A DNA stretch of 64,000 nt, taken from Thermosipho melanesiensis BI429. Its GTDB lineage: Bacteria > Thermotogota > Thermotogae > Thermotogales > Fervidobacteriaceae. Location: NCBI RefSeq assembly GCF_000016905.1, contig NC_009616.1, forward strand, positions 1,116,001 to 1,180,000, given 5' to 3'. The position numbers and the translations under genes were made by a program. The notes beneath the pieces are model-generated. The model saw nothing but the letters and a program-made list of their open reading frames with translations. It did no database searches and was not told the origin of the DNA. How positions within the stretch are numbered: the first letter of the stretch is position 1; every line of letters starts with the position of its first letter. This document shows positions 8,370 through 22,472 of this stretch, piece after piece.

Positions 8370-9000
8370 TTGATAAAGTCGATATTGTTCAATTAGGTGA
8401 TAATAGTTTTTTGTTTGCTTTGGATTTGTATGTTAGAAAAAATACTAAGCAAGTAAAAATGTATTTAATTTTGTTATAGGACATCTTGAAAAAGTGGTGA
8501 AATAAAAGGATTAAAAAGAGAAGACAGCTATGTTATTCCAATTGAAGCAATCAGAGAAGCTTTAGTAAATGCCGTTGTTCATAAAGATTATTCAATTAAA
8601 GGTTCAGATATAAAACTTGCGATTTTTGATGATAGAGTTGAGATAACTTCACCAGATGGACTTCCCGGGAATCTTAGTGTTGAGCTTATTCTGCAGGGGC
8701 GGTCGGAAATTAGAAATAGAGTTATTGCAAGGTTTTCAAAGAAATAGGTTATATTGAACAATGGAGAAAAGGGATAAAGAGGAAAGAAAAATTATGTAAA
8801 GATAAAACTCTAAAAACGCCAGAGTTTATTGATGATATAGCATTTTTTAAGGTAATAATTTACAAAGTGCAGGATATGAAAAGGAAATTTTGGAATTTCT
8901 TTATAAAAACCATTCTCTTTAAGAAAACCAAAGAAATGTTAGATAATTTTACAAATTTGGAAGTTTCCTTACATTAAATTTTTTTCAAACAAATGGGAAA
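8370..9000 (+). pseudogene. RecG-like/AlbA-type ATP-binding regulator, fragment
   Basis: Pieces of a HATPase_c_4 / RecG-like transcriptional regulator are readable in shifting frames. ALDLYVRKNTK is at ~8418-8450. IPIEAIREALVNAVVHKDYS and then IFDDRVEITSPDGLPG and GRSEIRNRVIAR are at ~8536-8730. After a frameshift near 8730, VFKEIGYIEQW...KGIKR follows. This order is the standard C-terminal part of the family. The N-terminal AlbA/Schlafen-like domain is absent, the frame is broken at least twice, and the winged-helix tail (EKEILEFLYKNHS, about 8877) is decayed. It is a clear relic. Confidence 0.75.
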
Positions 9001-13316: not shown

Positions 13317-13580
13317 ATGTTGAATTTTAATTGGGATTATTGCGAAGGCGTAGAAACAATAATTAGAAAAATGGTTTTGGGTAATCTTGAAGATTTCAAA
13401 GAACTTTTAAGTAAATACAGTGAAAAAGAACTAAAGGAGATTTTTCTAAATAATCTCCATAGGTTTTATGGTAAAGATAGAAGTTTTTGGAAAGTTATTT
13501 TGGAGGTTTCTAATGAAGAGATTAAAAGAAAATCAGATGAAAGTTTTAGAAACACTGTTACAACTAGAAATTTTCCATGA
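13317..13580 (+). CDS. partner of AbiEii-type toxin, DUF6922-like
   Basis: An 87-residue protein with a helix-rich start, FNWDYCEGVETIIRKMVLGNLEDF, and a helix-turn-helix-like middle (KYSEKELKEIF). It precedes and overlaps the AbiEii-like gene by 68 bases in another frame, as expected of an antitoxin or regulatory partner. The spacing LSKYSEKELKEIFLNN.. resembles the short DUF6922 proteins that accompany these nucleotidyltransferases. An extended -10 box (TGGTATAAT, TATAAT at 13294-13299) and a ribosome site (AGGGAG) precede the ATG. Its antitoxin role is inferred from context. Confidence 0.65.
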   Translation: MLNFNWDYCEGVETIIRKMVLGNLEDFKELLSKYSEKELKEIFLNNLHRFYGKDRSFWKVILEVSNEEIKRKSDESFRNTVTTRNFP

Positions 13581-14130
13581 TTTCTACCTTGCAGGTGGAA
13601 CATGCCTTCTTTTAAAATACAATCATAGGCCTTCCCTTGATTTTGATTTTTTTCTTTTTCCTGATAAAAATTTTTCAAATATATATGAAAATGTAATACG
13701 CAAAAAATTAAATGTAGAATTTATTTATAAAGATCCTCAAACCCTTATTTTTGAGTTAAATAGTATTAAAATTTCGCTGTTTGAATATCAATATCCACTT
13801 TTAAAGAAGCCCGAAAAAATGGGAAAACTTTATTTGGCAAGTGATGAAGATATTGCCTGTATGAAAATGAGTGCAATCAGTCAAAGAGGGTTAAAAAAAG
13901 ATTTTTTTGACCTTTGGTATTTAATTAATATTCACAAATGGACTCTTAGGGATTTACTTTCAATGCTTGGTAGAAAATATAAAGGGTACAACCCTTTTAT
14001 TTTTCTTAAGGCTTTGGTTTATTTTGAAGATGCGGAAAAAAATAAAGATTTTAGAGAAATTGAAGAAAGATGGAAAGATATAAAGAAATTTTTTGGTGAT
14101 TTTGTAAAATCCTTTAGAGAATATATTTAG
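13513..14130 (+). CDS. nucleotidyltransferase AbiEii/AbiGii toxin family protein
   Basis: The best start is ATG 13513, with TGGAGG five bases upstream, which lies inside the previous gene. The protein has the DUF1814/AbiEii pattern: FYLAGGTCLLLKYNHR near residue 22 (GG-T/S motif), followed by SLDFDFF with the metal-binding DxD pair. SDEDIACMKMSAISQRG and KKDFFDLWYL lie further on. At 205 residues it is on the short side for the family. Family members act as toxins of phage-abortive AbiE systems by transferring nucleotides. A decayed partial copy of the overlap region lies at 22162-22270. Confidence 0.85.
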   Translation: MKRLKENQMKVLETLLQLEIFHDFYLAGGTCLLLKYNHRPSLDFDFFLFPDKNFSNIYENVIRKKLNVEFIYKDPQTLIFELNSIKISLFEYQYPLLKKPEKMGKLYLASDEDIACMKMSAISQRGLKKDFFDLWYLINIHKWTLRDLLSMLGRKYKGYNPFIFLKALVYFEDAEKNKDFREIEERWKDIKKFFGDFVKSFREYI

Positions 14131-14176: not shown

Positions 14177-14969
14177 TTAATTATCATCAATAATATCTCC
14201 TTCAAAAATAAGTATATTTTTTTCTTTTTTTACTTTTTCAATAAAGCTTTTTGTATAGCCGCTATACGAAAAGAAGACAAAACATAAATCATCTAAATTT
14301 AAATTTTTATCCTTCAAAAGTTTTTTTGCTTTCTCTTATGTTTTTTTTTACTTCAAGTATTTCTATATATTTAGGAATTTCCCCCGTTAAAGAATAAAGT
14401 TTTATTAAATCAACATCTTTGTCTTCGAAAAAATCTTTAAAGTATTTAAACTTAATTGGTTTAAGATTTATCTGTCCTGTTCTTCTTCCATACAACGGGT
14501 TTGAATAAGAAAGAACCTCTCTTTTAATCATGGGAAGCGTTGACCCTGAAATTATTAGCATTATATTTTTATCTTTTAAATATTCATCCCAAACTTTTCG
14601 TAAAATAGAAGGGAAACCCTTATTTGACTGCAATAAATACTGAAATTCATCTATTACAATGATTAGTTTTTTCTTTAATTCTAAGGTGGAAACTATGTAA
14701 AAAAGGTCATTCCAGTTTAGAATCTTATTATCAGACAATAGTGGAATTTTATATTTTGAATAAAGGATACTCTGAAATGTTTTGATGTTTTTAATTTCAT
14801 TTTCCTCTGTTGCTAAAAAATAAACGCTATCTTTGTTTTTAATAAATTTCTTTTATAAGGCTTGTTTTTCCTATCCTTCTTCTGTCATACAATGCTATAA
14901 AAGAAGAAGTTTTTTTGTTGTATTCTTTTTCTAAAAAAATCATCTCATCAATCCGGTTACAAATTTCAT
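14177..14969 (-). pseudogene. DUF234-type ATPase, multiply frame-shifted
   Basis: A ribosome site (GAGGTGAT) and ATG 14969 are present, but the frame breaks within about ten codons. It resumes as NRIDEMIFLEKEYN and DRRRIGKTSLIKE (Walker A), and breaks again near 14855. It continues as a 143-codon piece with LIIVIDEFQYLL (Walker B), ISGSTLPM and NPLYGRRTG. A large internal part is deleted, and only a C-terminal tail (CFVFFSYSGYTKSFIEK) remains after another shift near 14330. It belongs to the same family as the intact ATPase at 5044-6417. It is clearly inactive. Confidence 0.8.
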
Positions 14970-15071: not shown

Positions 15072-16448
15072 TCACACGAGAAGCAAAAAAGATTCAATAG
15101 GAAGTGCTACTATGTCATCCTTTTTAAATAATGTATTTTTTGTTACCAATATTCCTTTTTGAAATACTTTTTTCATCGTAGAGTAATCAGAAGGGGAAAT
15201 ATTGTTTTGAAATTTAACTTCTATGGGAATAATGTTATTTTTTAGGTTAATTAAAAAATCAATTTCCTTTCCTTTTTGAGAATACCAAAAATATGGCCCA
15301 TTATACAACATCAATCCTTCAGATAAATCTTTTGAGTATTTTAAAAGGTGTGTAAAGACAATTTGCTTGATTTTTGTGGATAATTTAATTTGAGTATTTG
15401 TAATTTTTTCAATAACAAATGTAATAATTAAATCTAAAGGGTAAATCTTTTTTTGTTTTTTAGGTTTAATTGTTTTTTTAGAAAAGTCATAGAAAAACAA
15501 AATCCCAAAAAGAAAATTCATACTTAATAAATTGAAATAATCTTCGATTGTATTTTTCGAACTAACTCCTTCAATATCATTAGAAAGGGAATTCCAAGAA
15601 AAACGCTGACCTATTAAATCTGGAGTTTTAAAAAGTAATTGGTTTAATATTAACCTTGAGCGGTTAAATCGTTCAACATCCCCATACAGGTAGTTTCCAT
15701 ATGTATTTAAGGTTTCTTCAGATATAGCGTTATTTTCTAAAAAATCGTTAATTACTTTTGGAAATCCTCCAGTACTAATGTACGTTTTGAAATCGTCTTT
15801 AAATCTTGTAAGTTTTAGATTTAATGCTTTTAGCTCGTTTTCATTCATTTCAAACAAATCTTCCAGTTTATACTGAAAATCAATATTGGAATTTTGCATA
15901 ATATATTCTCTAAAGGAAACCGGTAAATATACAATATCTTTTCCAAATTCTCTTCTTCCAGGAAGCCTTTCAGAGGACTTTTTCAAATCGTATGAAGAAG
16001 AACCAGTTAGTACTACAAATGCGTTTTCGAGTTTGCCTGTATCGTATAAATATTTAATTGATTTTTGCCAATTACTTACACTTGAAACTTCATCGAGAAA
16101 CAAATACCTTTTTTCCTTGTTGTTATTTTTAATAGAAAAGTAATCAAGAAGAAGTTGAGTCAGTTCATTTTCATCTTTTATTAAATCAAGAGTGAGATAA
16201 AGAATATTTGATGGGTTAATGTTTTTTTCAATAAGGTCTTTAATGAGAAGCTTTAATACTGTTGTTTTTCCAATTTGTCTTGGACCTTTTATTATGTAAA
16301 TGCCATTTTTGTAATTTTTCAAATTTTTCATAAAGTAGGGTATGTATTTAAATTTGCTTTTCTCAAATTTTCTTATATGCATATCAAAATATATTGATTC
16401 ATTATCTTCCCACCATGGATTTTGACTATAGACATATGAAAAATCCAT
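15072..16448 (-). CDS. AAA ATPase with DUF4143 domain
   Basis: The start is ATG 16448, which has a GGAGG ribosome site; a longer frame to 16502 runs through the promoter. The protein is about 458 residues. Walker A GPRQIGKTTVL lies near residues 51-61, and YLFLDEVSSV (Walker B) near 112-121. VVLTGSSSYDLK (sensor) and LPGRREF follow. The C-terminal DUF4143 region ends in GKEIDFLI and IPIEVKF, a PD-(D/E)XK-like core. This family is common in prokaryotes and largely uncharacterised. Twin palindromes overlap its promoter, so it is probably repressed by a dimeric regulator, perhaps itself. Confidence 0.85.
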   Translation of the reverse strand: MDFSYVYSQNPWWEDNESIYFDMHIRKFEKSKFKYIPYFMKNLKNYKNGIYIIKGPRQIGKTTVLKLLIKDLIEKNINPSNILYLTLDLIKDENELTQLLLDYFSIKNNNKEKRYLFLDEVSSVSNWQKSIKYLYDTGKLENAFVVLTGSSSYDLKKSSERLPGRREFGKDIVYLPVSFREYIMQNSNIDFQYKLEDLFEMNENELKALNLKLTRFKDDFKTYISTGGFPKVINDFLENNAISEETLNTYGNYLYGDVERFNRSRLILNQLLFKTPDLIGQRFSWNSLSNDIEGVSSKNTIEDYFNLLSMNFLFGILFFYDFSKKTIKPKKQKKIYPLDLIITFVIEKITNTQIKLSTKIKQIVFTHLLKYSKDLSEGLMLYNGPYFWYSQKGKEIDFLINLKNNIIPIEVKFQNNISPSDYSTMKKVFQKGILVTKNTLFKKDDIVALPIESFLLLV

Positions 16449-16472
16449 ATTTTCACCTCCTGGATAAATCAT

Positions 16473-16534
16473 ATTATAACATATAGTCAGTATACTGACC
16501 AAATCGGGCCCAATTTGGTCAATACGCTGACCAA
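16473..16534 (-). promoter_or_regulatory. promoter with two palindromic operators
   Basis: On the minus strand, TATAAT (plus 16473-16478) lies 18 bases from a TTGGTC -35-like box. A perfect dyad GTCAGTATACTGAC covers 16486-16499, between the boxes. A second dyad, TTGGTCA-N6-TGACCAA, covers 16515-16534. The dyad centres are 32 bases apart, about three helical turns, so two bound dimers would lie on the same DNA face. Between them is a GGGCCC core. The layout is that of a repressor-controlled promoter for the ATPase. Confidence 0.7.
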
Positions 16535-16883
16535 AATTAATTAATAAGCCTCCATTAAAGAAGTTAATATATGCGGCAAAATTAAATCAAACAAAGTAAT
16601 TTTCAAAAGGCATTATTAAGGTTATGGAAATTAGTATTTCGGAATTTTTTTGTTTTATATAATTTGGTACATTGTATTTAATTTTGCGGGTTCATTAGCT
16701 ACAACAAAAAAGAAGGAAATTAAAAGTATAACTTATTATTTTTAATATTTTTAATTTTAAATACTAAAAAATATCAGAAGTTAGGTTTTTTTCTACTTTT
16801 TTTATATGATAAAATCGAAATGCTGTGTAACTATTATGTTACATAATGATTTGTTTTATTTTAATAAGGATGGGTAGAAATTT
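16535..16883. other. intergenic; upstream region of the TrlF operon
   Basis: About 350 AT-rich bases between divergent genes. A -10-like GATAAAAT occurs at about 16808-16815. Downstream of it a perfect dyad, TGTAAC-N6-GTTACA, lies at 16826-16843, where a bound regulator could block transcription into the operon. No ORF is supported. The ribosome site of the next gene is AAGGATGGG. Confidence 0.5.
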
Positions 16884-17210
16884 ATGGAAGACAAAGAGCA
16901 TTGTTGCGCAGAATGTTTTAAAGACGAATATATTAGAAACTTTATAATACAAGAAGGAAAAAAGGGAAAATGCGACGTATGTGGTAGAGATAATGTCTTT
17001 GTTGTAAGTTTTGACTTAGTAGCTGATTTTATTATTGAAGGGTTTAGAAGAGCATATGAAACATTAGAAAATGAAGGGTTTTGGCATCCTGAAGAAAAGA
17101 GATACTGTGATCCCGTTACGGGTAATGACTTAGGGCAATCAATGTTTGAAGCACTCTATTATGTTGAAGAAATATTTTCGGATGATTTAGAGGAGGTATT
17201 AAAACTGTGA
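16884..17210 (+). CDS. HEPN/RES N-terminal-domain-like zinc protein
   Basis: A 108-residue protein with two cysteine pairs, CCAEC near residue 7 and CDVC near residue 35, in the arrangement of the N-terminal domain found before RES toxins (HEPN/RES NTD1). The RES toxin domain itself is absent, so it is a stand-alone version, acidic at its end. Its stop overlaps the GTG start of the TrlF gene by 4 bases (GTGA), so the two are translationally coupled. It may act as a small regulator or antitoxin for the operon; that is inference. Confidence 0.6.
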   Translation: MEDKEHCCAECFKDEYIRNFIIQEGKKGKCDVCGRDNVFVVSFDLVADFIIEGFRRAYETLENEGFWHPEEKRYCDPVTGNDLGQSMFEALYYVEEIFSDDLEEVLKL

Positions 17211-17437
17211 AGAAAATAAATTTTGAAAGAGGTTCAGAATGGAGAAAATGGGATTTACATGTACATACACCTTTTTCTTATTTAAATAATCAATTTGGGA
17301 ATGATTTTGATCAATATGTCAAAGGACTGTTCAAAAGAGCTATTCAAAAGGAGATAGCAGCTATAGGGATTACAGATTATTTCTCTATAGAAGGATATAA
17401 AAAGTTAAAAGAATACCTTGATGATGAAAAAGATTAG
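17207..17437 (+). pseudogene. TrlF-type ATPase, N-terminal PHP part (before frameshift)
   Basis: This is the first 76 residues of a PHP-domain protein: the WDLHVHTPFS motif (metal-binding histidines) and AAIGITDYFS. The frame ends at a TAG (17435-17437) after the A5 run at 17427-17431. One extra A would join it to the next 870-codon frame. The two pieces together form one complete TrlF-like protein, so the break is either a recent mutation, a sequencing error or, less likely, a slippage site. Confidence 0.75.
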
Positions 17438-20049
17438 GGCATCTATTTTCCAATGAAGAAATAGAAAAAATAAAGCAAATTCTTGTTTTGCCTAACATAG
17501 AGTTTAGATTAAACAAACTAGTAGGTAAAAGGAGAATAAATTTTCATGTCATTTTTTCAAATGAAGTGGATGTTTATGATATTGAAAGGGAATTTCTAGA
17601 GAGTATTAAATTTGTTTATGAAGCTGAGCCTCAGGCCGGTGATGAGAAAAGAAGTTTAACCAAGGAAAATTTAGAAAGACTTGGAAGAAAGCTGAAAAAA
17701 GAACATAAGAATTTTAAAAATGAACCCGATATTGTAATAGGATTGAAAAATGCAGTTGTTGATGATGAAGATATTATGCAAATACTTTCAAATAAAAAAT
17801 CAATTTTTAAGGGTAAGTATTTGATATTTGTACCAGCTGATGAAGATTTGAGTAAAATTTCATGGAACGGTCAAGATCATCAAACAAGAAAATTACTAAT
17901 TCAAAAATGTGATGGTTTGATTGCATCAAATCAGAATACAATAGAATGGGCACTTGGTTACAAACATCCTGGTAAAACAAGAAAAGAAAAAATAAGAAAT
18001 TTTAAAAAAGAATTTAAGAGTTTGAAACCATGCATTTTTGGTTCTGATGCGCACAGTTTAGAAAAATTATTTGAACCTGACAATAAGAAATATACATGGA
18101 TCAAAGCTGATCCTACATTCGAGGGATTAAAACAGGTAATTTATGAACCTGAAGAAAGAGTTAAAATTCAAGAAAAAAATCCTCAAGAATTTTATCACAA
18201 ACCATTTTTCTCAAGTATAACAATAAAGGAATCAGAAATTTTTGAAGAAGGAAGTGTAAAATTTTTAGATACAAGTATTAAGCTCAATCCAAATCTTGTG
18301 GCAATAATAGGTGGGCGAGGTACAGGAAAAAGTTTGTTGTTGGATGCTGTTGCTAAAACTTTTGAAAAAGAACCTAAAAATGAACGAGCACAAAGTATTT
18401 CTATTAGAAATGATGATTTTGTTGTAAGCTATGAAAAAACGGATGGTACAAAAATAGAGTATAAAATTCAAGAACAAAATGTGTTAGATTATCTTCATGT
18501 TTATCAAGGAAAGGTAAAAGATATTGTTGATCCAAAATTGCCAGAGCACTTAGATAGTGAAATAAAAGGTTTGCTTAACTTTTCAGATGTCCCACAAAGA
18601 CCTTTTAGTGAAGAAGAAATAAATAGATTGATAAATGAAATTTTTGAAATTAAAGGATTTTTGGAAAAGAAAGATAGTAATGGCAATCTTATAAATTCGT
18701 TATCTTTCATAGAACAAGAAATTGGTAAAAAGAAAAAATTGATTAATAACATAACAACAAAGGAAAACACTGAATTGATTGAAAAATATAGTGCTAATTT
18801 AAAATTAATTGACAAAGTTGAAAAAATGAAAGAAAATCTTGAATTGTTGTCCAAAGAATTGGTTTCATTTCAAGAAGAAAAAAATAAAATAATTGAAGAA
18901 TTAAATAAAGAGCTAAGCTCTGATAATAAATTACCGCTTTTAGATTTTAAATTTTATATTGAAAAGATCTTATCAATTAATAATAACAATAATGAATATT
19001 TGGAAGAAATTAGAAATGAAAATAAAAATATCAAAGATGAATTCAGAAAAAAGGGAATAATTGGTGATATATCTACATTACTTGAACAAGTAAAAAAATA
19101 TCAGGAAGAAATTATTGATTTGGAAAATAGAAAAGATGAAGTTATAAAAAAAGAAAAAGATTTGATGCAAAAATTTAGCATTATATCAAATTTTGTGGAA
19201 AAATTAGTTGAATCATATAATGACTATGTAATTAATGTAGAAAGAAGTTGGAATTATTTAAAAAAAGGAAAAGAAGATTGGACTGAAGAACAAAAAACAT
19301 TAGTAGAGAAACTTCTTAGCGATATTAAGGTTAAACCTAGGATAAGTTTTGATAATAAAATTTTTTATGAAAAATTAAAAAAATGTCTAAATTTAAGAAT
19401 GTTTCAGTCAACAAAAGAACAAAATCAAGAAGATAGAATAAAAGAAGTTTTTAATATACACTCTGAAGAAGATTTTATTAACCTTTTGAAAAATAAAAAA
19501 ATGATAAACATAAACTCAGAAAAATTTTCGTTATCAGAAATATTAGATAAAAATTTGTTTGTAAAAGATGGCACAAAAGATTTTTTAAAATTATTGTTGA
19601 TTGAAACTTCAAGTTACTGGAATGTAATTTCTGAAGTGTATTATAAGTCAAAAAGCTTGTCACAATTATCGGTAGGCATGAAAGGTACAATGTATATATG
19701 CTTAAAATTGGCTACTGATCCGTTTATAAAACCCTTCATTTTTGATCAACCTGAAGATGATTTAGATAATGATTTTATAATGAATAATCTTGTCCCAATT
19801 TTTAGAAAAATAAAAAAATATCGTCAAGTAATAATTGTAACTCACAATGCTAATTTAGTTGTTAATGCTGATGCTGAACAAATTATAGTTGCTGAGAATA
19901 ATAATGAGTGTATAAGTTACAAAGCTGGCTCACTTGAAAATCCAGATATTAGAAACGAGATTTGCAAAATTTTGGAAGGCGGTGAATATGCATTTAAGCA
20001 GCGGGAAAGAAAATATTCTTTTCCTATTCAAAAGGAGGAGGTTGACTAA
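17428..20049 (+). CDS. TrlF-type PHP-ATPase, main part
   Basis: The frame is open from 17428; a TTG at 17488 is the first start codon, with no good ribosome site, so it is best read as the continuation of 17207. The remaining PHP motifs follow (for example GSDAHS near residue 185). Then comes an SMC-like ATPase: Walker A GGRGTGKS (~274 from TTG), a long coiled coil (~380-600), a signature-like LSQLSVGMKG and Walker B FIFDQPEDDLDN (~750) with THNANLV. PHP nucleases fused to SMC-type ATPases are probable anti-phage or DNA-processing machines. It ends overlapping the next TTG start. Confidence 0.8.
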   Translation, partial: KRLGHLFSNEEIEKIKQILVLPNIEFRLNKLVGKRRINFHVIFSNEVDVYDIEREFLESIKFVYEAEPQAGDEKRSLTKENLERLGRKLKKEHKNFKNEPDIVIGLKNAVVDDEDIMQILSNKKSIFKGKYLIFVPADEDLSKISWNGQDHQTRKLLIQKCDGLIASNQNTIEWALGYKHPGKTRKEKIRNFKKEFKSLKPCIFGSDAHSLEKLFEPDNKKYTWIKADPTFEGLKQVIYEPEERVKIQEKNPQEFYHKPFFSSITIKESEIFEEGSVKFLDTSIKLNPNLVAIIGGRGTGKSLLLDAVAKTFEKEPKNERAQSISIRNDDFVVSYEKTDGTKIEYKIQEQNVLDYLHVYQGKVKDIVDPKLPEHLDSEIKGLLNFSDVPQRPFSEEEINRLINEIFEIKGFLEKKDSNGNLINSLSFIEQEIGKKKKLINNITTKENTELIEKYSANLKLIDKVEKMKENLELLSKELVSFQEEKNKIIEELNKELSSDNKLPLLDFKFYIEKILSINNNNNEYLEEIRNENKNIKDEFRKKGIIGDISTLLEQVKKYQEEIIDLENRKDEVIKKEKDLMQKFSIISNFVEKLVESYNDYVINVERSWNYLKKGKEDWTEEQKTLVEKLLSDIKVKPRISFDNKIFYEKLKKCLNLRMFQSTKEQNQEDRIKEVFNIHSEEDFINLLKNKKMININSEKFSLSEILDKNLFVKDGTKDFLKLLLIETSSYWNVISEVYYKSKSLSQLSVGMKGTMYICLKLATDPFIKPFIFDQPEDDLDNDFIMNNLVPIFRKIKKYRQVIIVTHNANLVVNADAEQIIVAENNNECISYKAGSLENPDIRNEICKILEGGEYAFKQRERKYSFPIQKEEVD

Positions 20050-20254
20050 TAAAGTAAAGAGTGAGAATAAAAAGATAGAGAAATTGTTAAAGAAACATAA
20101 TCCTATATACATACTTTCTTATATTGCTTGTTTTTTTAATTTTGATTTAAATGCCAATAAGGTTTATTTATTACTTAAAGAAAAACCGATTTTGTATAAC
20201 AGATCTTTATTTTATATTCAAATTAACCTTTTCATATGTGATAAAATAAGGTAA
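20042..20254 (+). CDS. small hypothetical protein of TrlF operon
   Basis: A 70-residue ORF starts at TTG 20042 just after a very strong ribosome site (AAAGGAGGAG) and overlaps the TrlF stop by 8 bases, so translation is likely. It is basic at the N-terminus (KVKSENKKIEKLLKKHN) and hydrophobic in the middle (IYILSYIACFFNF). I do not recognise the family. It may be an accessory subunit of the operon. Confidence 0.55.
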   Translation: MTNKVKSENKKIEKLLKKHNPIYILSYIACFFNFDLNANKVYLLLKEKPILYNRSLFYIQINLFICDKIR

Positions 20255-20282
20255 AAGAAGTTTTTATAAAGGGGAGAAGTGT

Positions 20283-21179
20283 ATGGAAAAATGCAGAAAA
20301 CAATTGCCAAAGTTTTATCGACAAAAGTTTCTTTTAGTTCTTTTAGAAGTTTTTGGCAAGGAATTGAAGAAAATGGACTTTCAAAAGTATTTATTTTTAT
20401 ATCAGCAGTTATATCGTTCAAATAATCCTTTATATTATTTCGTACCATACAAATATGGTCCATTTTCATTTCAGGCATATGCTGATTTACACAAGATGGA
20501 AAATCAGGGATTCTTGATAGTTGAAGATACTATTAAGTTAACGACGAAAATAACAAATTATGAATTTCTGAAAAAAGAAGATAAGAAAGCGATTGAAGAT
20601 TTCTATTTAAAATTTAAAAATCTTCATGGAAGAGCGTTGCTTCAATATGTTTATGAAAAATATCCATATTATGCTAGTAAAAGTGAAATTAGAGGCAAGA
20701 TAACTTCCAAAGAATATATGCAAATAGAAAATACAAATACCGAAAAATCTTTGTTTACACTTGGTTATGAGGGTATAACAATAGAACAATATTTAAATAT
20801 GTTAATTAAGAATAATATTCATTCAGTTATTGATGTTAGAAAAAATCCTATCAGTATGAAATATGGTTTTTCAAGAAAAACTTTAAAAAATGCTCTTGAA
20901 AATTTAAATATAGAATACATACATTTACCTGAATTAGGGATTGATTCTAATAAACGAAAAGATCTTTCGACCCTGGAGGATTATAATGTTTTATTTGAGT
21001 ATTACAAAAAAAATGTTTTATTAAAGCAAAAAAGTGCTATTGAAAGAATATTAAAAGAATATTCAAAAAAGAATCGGGTTGTACTTACATGTTTTGAGAA
21101 AGATCCAAAATATTGTCATAGATCAAAAATAAGTGATTATATAGAAAATCATTTTGGAATAAAGGTGATACATCTATGA
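20283..21179 (+). CDS. DUF4065-like/DUF488 fusion protein
   Basis: A 298-residue protein with two domains. Residues 1-130 resemble the Panacea/DUF4065 (SocA-like) antitoxin domain: MDFQKYLFLYQQ and YYFVPYKYGPFSFQAYADLH. Residues ~155-298 are DUF488: FTLGYEGITIEQYL, SVIDVRKNP, SRKTLKNAL, and the C-terminal CFEKDPKYCHR. This fusion recurs in bacterial and archaeal accessory islands. It starts after a GGGGAGAAG ribosome site and ends overlapping the next ATG by 4 bases. The molecular function is not established; a nucleic-acid-linked role is likely from context. Confidence 0.75.
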   Translation: MEKCRKQLPKFYRQKFLLVLLEVFGKELKKMDFQKYLFLYQQLYRSNNPLYYFVPYKYGPFSFQAYADLHKMENQGFLIVEDTIKLTTKITNYEFLKKEDKKAIEDFYLKFKNLHGRALLQYVYEKYPYYASKSEIRGKITSKEYMQIENTNTEKSLFTLGYEGITIEQYLNMLIKNNIHSVIDVRKNPISMKYGFSRKTLKNALENLNIEYIHLPELGIDSNKRKDLSTLEDYNVLFEYYKKNVLLKQKSAIERILKEYSKKNRVVLTCFEKDPKYCHRSKISDYIENHFGIKVIHL

Positions 21180-22012
21180 ATGTAGAAAAAACTAGAGTTT
21201 TAATACTTGTTAAAACTTATCCAACACTTTCAAAAAAATATTCAGAACTAGTTTGTACAGCGGGGATGAAGGAAGATGGTTCATGGGTTAGAATTTATCC
21301 AGTTCCTTTTAGATTTTTAGAATATGGAAAGAGGTACAAGAAGTATCAATGGATTGAAGTTAAGCTTATGAGAAATTCTTCAGATCCAAGACCTGAAAGT
21401 TATAAAATAGTTAATGTTAATGATATAAAGTTGTTGGACATTATTGATACTAAAGATAAGTGGAGAAAAAGAAGAGAACTGGTACTTGGAAAGTTAAAAA
21501 TTTACTATAGTATTGAAGAGCTTATAAAAAAAGCCAAAAATTTTGAACTATCGTTAGCTCTCTTTAAACCTAAATCGATAGATGATTTTATAATAGAATC
21601 AACTGAAAGGGAATGGGATAAAGAGCTGATCCGAAAGATAGAAAATAATATAAAACAACCAGGGCTTTTTGATAGTGAAGAAGAAAAGCTTGCTAAGGAG
21701 ACTTTTCGACTAGTAAGAAAATTACCTTACAAATTTTTTTATAAGTTTCAAGATGAAACTGGAAAACAATGTAGACTTATGATAGAAGATTGGGAGATAG
21801 GTCAACTCTTTTGGAATTGTCTTGAAAATTCAAAAAATGAAAAAGAGGCATTAGAGAAGGTAAGACAAAAGTATATGGTAGAACTAACAAAAAAAGATTT
21901 ATACTTTTTTCTTGGAACAACCAAGAAATTTCATGGTATTGCAAAAAATCCTTTTTTAATTATAGGTTTGTTTTATCCTCCAAAAACAGAACCTATGTTA
22001 TTTGATTTATAA
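21176..22012 (+). CDS. conserved partner of DUF488 protein, function unknown
   Basis: A 278-residue soluble protein. It begins with TRVLILVKTYPTLSKKYSEL and a strongly conserved-looking VCTAGMKEDGSWVRIYPVPFR block, followed by KYQWIEVKL and DPRPESYK. This family accompanies DUF488 genes in many islands. The N-terminal part looks like a beta-barrel or OB-like fold and the C-terminal part (KKFHGIAKNPFLIIGLFYPP) is a second small domain. No catalytic motif is recognised. It closes the operon. Confidence 0.6.
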   Translation: MNVEKTRVLILVKTYPTLSKKYSELVCTAGMKEDGSWVRIYPVPFRFLEYGKRYKKYQWIEVKLMRNSSDPRPESYKIVNVNDIKLLDIIDTKDKWRKRRELVLGKLKIYYSIEELIKKAKNFELSLALFKPKSIDDFIIESTEREWDKELIRKIENNIKQPGLFDSEEEKLAKETFRLVRKLPYKFFYKFQDETGKQCRLMIEDWEIGQLFWNCLENSKNEKEALEKVRQKYMVELTKKDLYFFLGTTKKFHGIAKNPFLIIGLFYPPKTEPMLFDL

Positions 22013-22472
22013 AAGTTTGAATTTTTATAAGATTATGGAACTTATAATTTTCTTTTTGAGAAGACCAAATAAGGAGAAATTTATCAATAATTAAAATTTC
22101 TCTCGATTATTTTGATATTCCGTTTTTATATTATATAACCTTTAATATCCCATCTTCTTAATGGAAAAGATAGAAGTTTTTGGAAAGTTATTCTGGAGGT
22201 TTCTAATGAAGAGATTAAAAGAAAATTAGATAAAAATTTTAGAAAAGCTTTTGCAATTAGAAATTTTCCAGTTTTTTGTTAGTTGACTTACAAATGCTCA
22301 TTTAATTCGATATAACTCTGTAGAAAGCTGTAATAAAAAATGCGTTAAAAATGTGAAAATATGTTTTTGATATATTGTTATCGAGATAGTTAACAAAATA
22401 TTACGTTTATATTTTTTTGATATAATTTAAATGTATGTAGTAATTCAAAAAATATGTGGGGGGTGAATTTTA
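22013..22472. other. intergenic with relic of AbiEii-type locus
   Basis: An internal segment, 22162-22270, matches 13470-13580, the overlap between the antitoxin-like gene and the AbiEii gene, including its TGGAGG ribosome site. In this copy the frame hits a stop (AAATTAG) after a few codons. The rest is AT-rich. A GGGGGGTGAA ribosome site for the next gene lies at 22456-22465. Confidence 0.7.
22162..22270 (+). repeat. ~110 bp decayed copy of the 13470-13580 toxin-antitoxin overlap
   Basis: Most positions are identical to 13470-13580, with scattered substitutions that introduce a stop. The similarity ends abruptly at both sides, so it is a fragment left by duplication or by deletion of a second AbiE-like locus. 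Confidence 0.75.

Follow-up and report, generated by a model that had tools for sequence, protein, structure and literature searches.

An apparent five-gene defence operon in Thermosipho melanesiensis is very probably a mosaic of gene remnants beside the catalogued candidate pair PDC-M19

Introduction

Do five closely spaced reading frames in the complete, A+T-rich genome of Thermosipho melanesiensis BI429 (1,915,238 bases) encode one defence system, or were they brought together piecemeal? The question is raised by a 64,000-nucleotide stretch of this genome (the window, to which all coordinates given without a handle refer), in which a sequence-only reading had recognized five coupled genes, among them a stand-alone HEPN/RES gene and a small protein of 70 residues, in a combination matching no named system. 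The five frames (16884–17210, 17207–20049, 20042–20254, 20283–21179 and 21176–22012) do lie on one strand, but the second, coding for the ATPase TrlF, is not a single frame, and the short overlap claimed between the third and the fourth is not there, the two being separated by a gap of 28 nt. The only overlap joining two genes that look intact is the ATGA at 21176–21179, shared by the last two.

Here, we propose that the apparent operon is very probably a mosaic that arose by successive cargo replacement at a variable spot, and not one system. The order at this spot is a HEPN-RES stump, a frameshifted TrlF gene, a NERD stump and an intact-looking PDC-M19 pair. A HEPN-RES gene is cut at about codon 104, and TrlF-bearing sequence now stands behind the stub; a NERD-nuclease gene directly behind TrlF is cut at about codon 80; and the complete two-gene module PDC-M19A–M19B stands behind this second stub. 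The frames may lie so close together partly because some genes keep the native starts that they had beside earlier partners, and partly because of the junctions themselves. This reading takes a false 'new system' off the list and illustrates that closely spaced reading frames can mimic an operon at a cargo-swapping spot. What is left worth asking concerns PDC-M19, a candidate that is catalogued and widespread, and for which the predicted OB folds of M19B and the predicted Panacea-DUF488 architecture of M19A open direct biochemical tests.

Two gene stumps and a split TrlF gene

The leader gene (16884–17210, + strand) codes for 108 amino acids, of which residues 1–104 correspond to the start of a 371-aa HEPN-RES protein and the last four or so derive from the sequence preceding TrlF. 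Its zinc domain is of the HEPN/RES type, as had been read from the sequence, and scores above the Pfam cut-off for HEPN_RES_NTD1 (PF18870; 5e-7), with a match confined to positions 2–56 of 131, approximately the first half of the domain, in which the zinc-knuckle part is retained. An intact counterpart of 371 aa, in which the N-terminal domain is accompanied by a RES domain, is present in G084, a genome from another genus of the same family, and the leader is 98% identical to this protein over residues 1–104. At the DNA level, 95% identity to G084 extends over 15081–17194, spanning the divergent ATPase gene and the intergenic region, and ends twelve nucleotides short of the start codon of TrlF. 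Because the match runs to about codon 104 and the RES part is missing from the leader and, on searching, from the rest of its own genome, the supposed stand-alone gene is a stump, the truncated 5′ end of a gene that is whole in a relative. Compared with HEPN-RES proteins (PF18870 plus PF08808), it therefore retains half of the N-terminal domain and nothing of the RES domain.

The small 70-residue protein had been listed as an unknown; its reading frame (20042–20254, + strand) turns out to be the N-terminal stub of a NERD-nuclease-domain protein, corresponding to approximately residues 8–82 of 644. In a whole-genome search of relatives, it matches the N-termini of 644- and 664-aa frames in G083 and G078 at about 1e-9; the match is short, covering 75 residues at 42% identity (7e-9), and is accompanied by 71% DNA identity to G083 over 20047–20193. 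The intact relative has a NERD domain (PF08378, 5e-5), whereas the nuclease domain is missing from the 70-aa frame, and the remainder of the protein was not found in a search of the window's own genome. Searches of the 70-aa frame against plasmids gave no match, and those against Pfam, PADLOC and PHROGs gave nothing credible; the genomes of relatives alone revealed its identity. In the relatives, the intact NERD gene is preceded by a different gene and not by TrlF. At two such loci (L190:3525-6816 and L191:4055-7393), it forms a conserved pair with an upstream gene for a 441–446-aa protein, which has no Pfam match and carries an RNFAFH motif resembling those of HEPN RNases.

Between the two stubs lies the gene for the PHP-SMC-type ATPase of the earlier reading, whose family assignment holds: it is a TrlF, an AAA-like ATPase family related to Ppl (NCBIfam NF045780). 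The gene is, however, split between two frames in the present assembly, and no single uninterrupted coding frame is found, the frame changing at about 17427–17437. The N-terminal fragment (17207–17437, + strand) starts at the GTG at 17207, includes the start of the PHP domain (DLHVHTP), matches profile positions 1–62 (2.7e-25) and closes at the in-frame TAG at 17435–17437. The rest of TrlF (17434–20049, + strand) lies in the −1 frame with respect to the first fragment, matches profile positions 77–943 (8.6e-141; 471.5 bits against a curated cut-off of 350) and contains the remainder of the PHP domain, a Walker A motif (GGRGTGKS), an SMC-like coiled coil and the motif DQPEDD. The fragments match the family profile in order, whereas most of the homologues seen are single frames of 887–955 aa. 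The junction of the two frames falls on five consecutive A (17427–17431), and, with one assembly to judge from, the frameshift could be decay, a sequencing error or slippage. A programmed frameshift was considered, in which GAAAAAGATTAG would permit one tRNA to re-pair at AAA; this sequence is no classical tandem slippery site, and the homologues lack the frameshift.

No TrlF match was obtained in viral contigs when a single sequence was used for the scan, and 10 loci were obtained when an alignment was used. Together with one Yersinia plasmid and two genomes of the window's class, these give 13 TrlF loci, none of which has an M19, NERD or leader gene beside TrlF. A link between the TrlF and NERD genes was considered, but none of the TrlF loci examined has a NERD gene. 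In three genomes of the same class (L010, L011 and L047), TrlF is overlapped by a following Schlafen/AlbA_2–HATPase_c_4 gene. A literature search on TrlF gave no function.

The PDC-M19 pair and its distribution

The last two genes were part of the combination that the earlier reading could match to no named system; a PADLOC profile search places them in the listed candidate PDC-M19. PDC-M19A (20283–21179, + strand) consists of a Panacea-like N-terminal domain and a DUF488 domain and matches PDLC04505 at 7e-101 (residues 11–296 on profile positions 2–292 of 294), and PDC-M19B (21176–22012, + strand), a predicted tandem OB-fold protein, matches PDLC04508 at 3.8e-111 (profile positions 2–264 of 269). 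Both genes look intact, and the pair, adjoining in the order A then B and matched over nearly the full length of both components, differs in no kind from the catalogued candidate. The DUF4065-like/DUF488 fusion recognized from the sequence is borne out: DUF488 is clear (PF04343, 2.9e-28), and the similarity to Panacea/DUF4065 (PF13274) is weak, at 16.9 bits below the 25.7-bit Pfam cut-off. With TrlF and PDC-M19, two parts of the locus do belong to defence-linked families, as the earlier reading held. By its profile matches the M19A–M19B pair is an already catalogued candidate, and it is likely the one unit of the locus expected to work.

A scan of the collection for M19B gave 108 loci (80 in genomes and 28 in viral contigs) from many phyla, with an M19A-like match in 103. 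Where an M19B frame was present (105 loci), a DUF488 gene was adjacent in 102, as an upstream Panacea-DUF488 fusion in 16, tail-to-tail in 63, downstream on the same strand in 22 and, in one, as a short frame upstream, close to where the contig ends; at one further locus (L181), a Panacea-DUF488 fusion adjoins a partial M19B. The proteobacterial forms thus differ from the pair in the window by a shorter DUF488 gene placed tail-to-tail with M19B, and the cyanobacterial forms by a short DUF488 gene downstream. Within the available sequence, which covers at least 5 kb upstream in 73 of the 108, neither TrlF nor the leader, the 70-aa frame or the NERD protein was found near M19B at any locus. Since M19 loci occur without TrlF and the 13 TrlF loci without M19, the two are separate modules whose adjacency here is local.

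Across 103 genomes of the phylum, the only other M19B found is a decayed fragment with an internal stop in G049, of the same class (G049:C1:457876-458223, locus L003). At proteobacterial loci (L093, L100, L106 and others, around 8767-8807), M19B and the short DUF488 gene, tail-to-tail on opposite strands, share a 3′ overlap that is precisely 44 or 47 nt long at 38 of some 63 loci, an unusually constant antisense arrangement. A literature search found no paper naming PDC-M19 and no experiment on it; PDCs are described as mostly unvalidated (PMC12988326).

Predicted structures and a candidate mechanism

Sequence searches of solved structures gave weak matches only for M19A and M19B, and the following rests on models. 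In the model of M19A (pLDDT 90.9), residues 10–147 align with the C-terminal domain of DarG (7yk3_B; Z 11.6, 3.3 Å, 134 residues), so that the N-terminal domain appears alike in fold to this Panacea antitoxin domain. In contrast to DarG, it is fused to DUF488 and not to a macrodomain. Panacea domains neutralize diverse toxins by direct contact and are typical of toxin-antitoxin loci (PMC8832971). The DUF488 domain of M19A is modelled with a Rossmann-like arrangement and has the invariant residues GYEG, DVR and CFE...CHR. As its matches to PTP-type phosphatases (laforin, SsoPTP) and to tetrapyrrole methylases tie at Z of about 9, no enzyme class is claimed, and a literature search on DUF488 gave no function.

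For the M19B model (pLDDT 93.8), the leading structural matches from the PDB, as from the viral library BFVD, are OB-fold nucleic-acid-binding proteins, namely RPA70, HIN-200, POT1/Teb1 and LEF-3. Matches to RPA70 and HIN-200 reach Z 6–7 over 157–187 residues, and the top Z of 6.8 (Foldseek E 1e-5) is below 8, a level at which, as the tool warns, Z may reflect a common arrangement only. The OB-fold match is therefore a lead and not proof. M19B is predicted, from its model, to be a tandem OB-fold protein and may share the two-OB arrangement of single-stranded DNA-binding proteins such as RPA70, HIN-200 and LEF-3.

Read most simply, the models suggest that M19B would be a nucleic-acid sensor and M19A its partner enzyme. 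We hypothesize that the tandem OB folds of M19B may bind single-stranded nucleic acid exposed by infection or DNA damage, that M19B would control the DUF488 enzyme domain of M19A, and that the Panacea-like domain would restrain the complex or dock the partner. This mechanism is tentative and less likely than not to be right. We would put even less weight on the more specific proposal that the two genes of PDC-M19 form a widespread module of immunity or stress response, with an RPA70-/HIN-200-like tandem OB sensor of exposed single-stranded nucleic acid that licenses a Panacea-restrained DUF488 enzyme. Defence, DNA binding and enzyme activity are all predicted, candidate functions of the pair.

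Alternative readings of the locus

A genuine five-gene defence operon, with the stand-alone HEPN/RES N-terminal domain and the 70-aa protein as working parts, would fit the shared strand, the start/stop overlaps and the Shine-Dalgarno-like GGAGG that stands ahead of both TrlF and the 70-aa frame. It is nevertheless highly improbable: the claim fails because the leader and the 70-aa frame are both N-terminal stubs of larger genes that are intact in relatives, TrlF is out of frame, and none of the 108 M19 and 13 TrlF loci has the five genes together, which refutes the combination as a conserved system. The earlier reading had named two outcomes that would refute it, no co-occurrence elsewhere or a match to a known system; both were observed, the second for the last two genes, which match a listed candidate. 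It is possible, if somewhat doubtful, that TrlF and PDC-M19 are two working defence modules, independently acquired and neighbours by chance, with the frameshift a sequencing error or bypassed by slippage. The position of the frame change at a run of five A, together with the openness of the remaining frame as far as 20049 and the preservation of its motifs, agrees with a working TrlF, but the TrlF copy of G049 is also damaged (749 aa, with profile positions of about 656–890 missing), which shows that TrlF genes do decay in this group.

Instead of serving defence, PDC-M19 could be a pair of genes for DNA repair or nucleotide handling that travels on prophages and plasmids, an option that we do not favour and yet take seriously, given that M19 loci adjoin housekeeping genes as well as lying in viral contigs and plasmids, and that the predicted folds are compatible with DNA metabolism. 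Against it stand the cataloguing of PDC-M19 by PADLOC as a defence candidate and the association of Panacea domains with toxin-antitoxin loci.

Edges of the foreign stretch

The stretch foreign to relatives can be delimited to 17195–22157, between the point at which flank homology to G084 stops (17194) and the point at which it resumes, at 96% identity (22158). In G084 itself, the two flanks are on different contigs, and other sequence precedes the right one. Across 19 further genomes from the family, these 4,963 bases have no long match.

The wider region, from 13 to 22 kb, seems to have undergone gain and decay more than once. A 113-bp direct repeat, 90% identical between its copies, is present at 13465–13577, where it forms the beginning of an AbiEii-like nucleotidyltransferase gene (13468–14130), and at 22158–22270, where a decayed copy marks the mosaic's right edge. 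Relatives have related copies at several places. On the − strand, divergent from the leader stump, 14307–14738 and 15072–16502 hold an AAA_14/DUF4143 ATPase (PADLOC PDC-S01) beside a shorter fragment of another ATPase.
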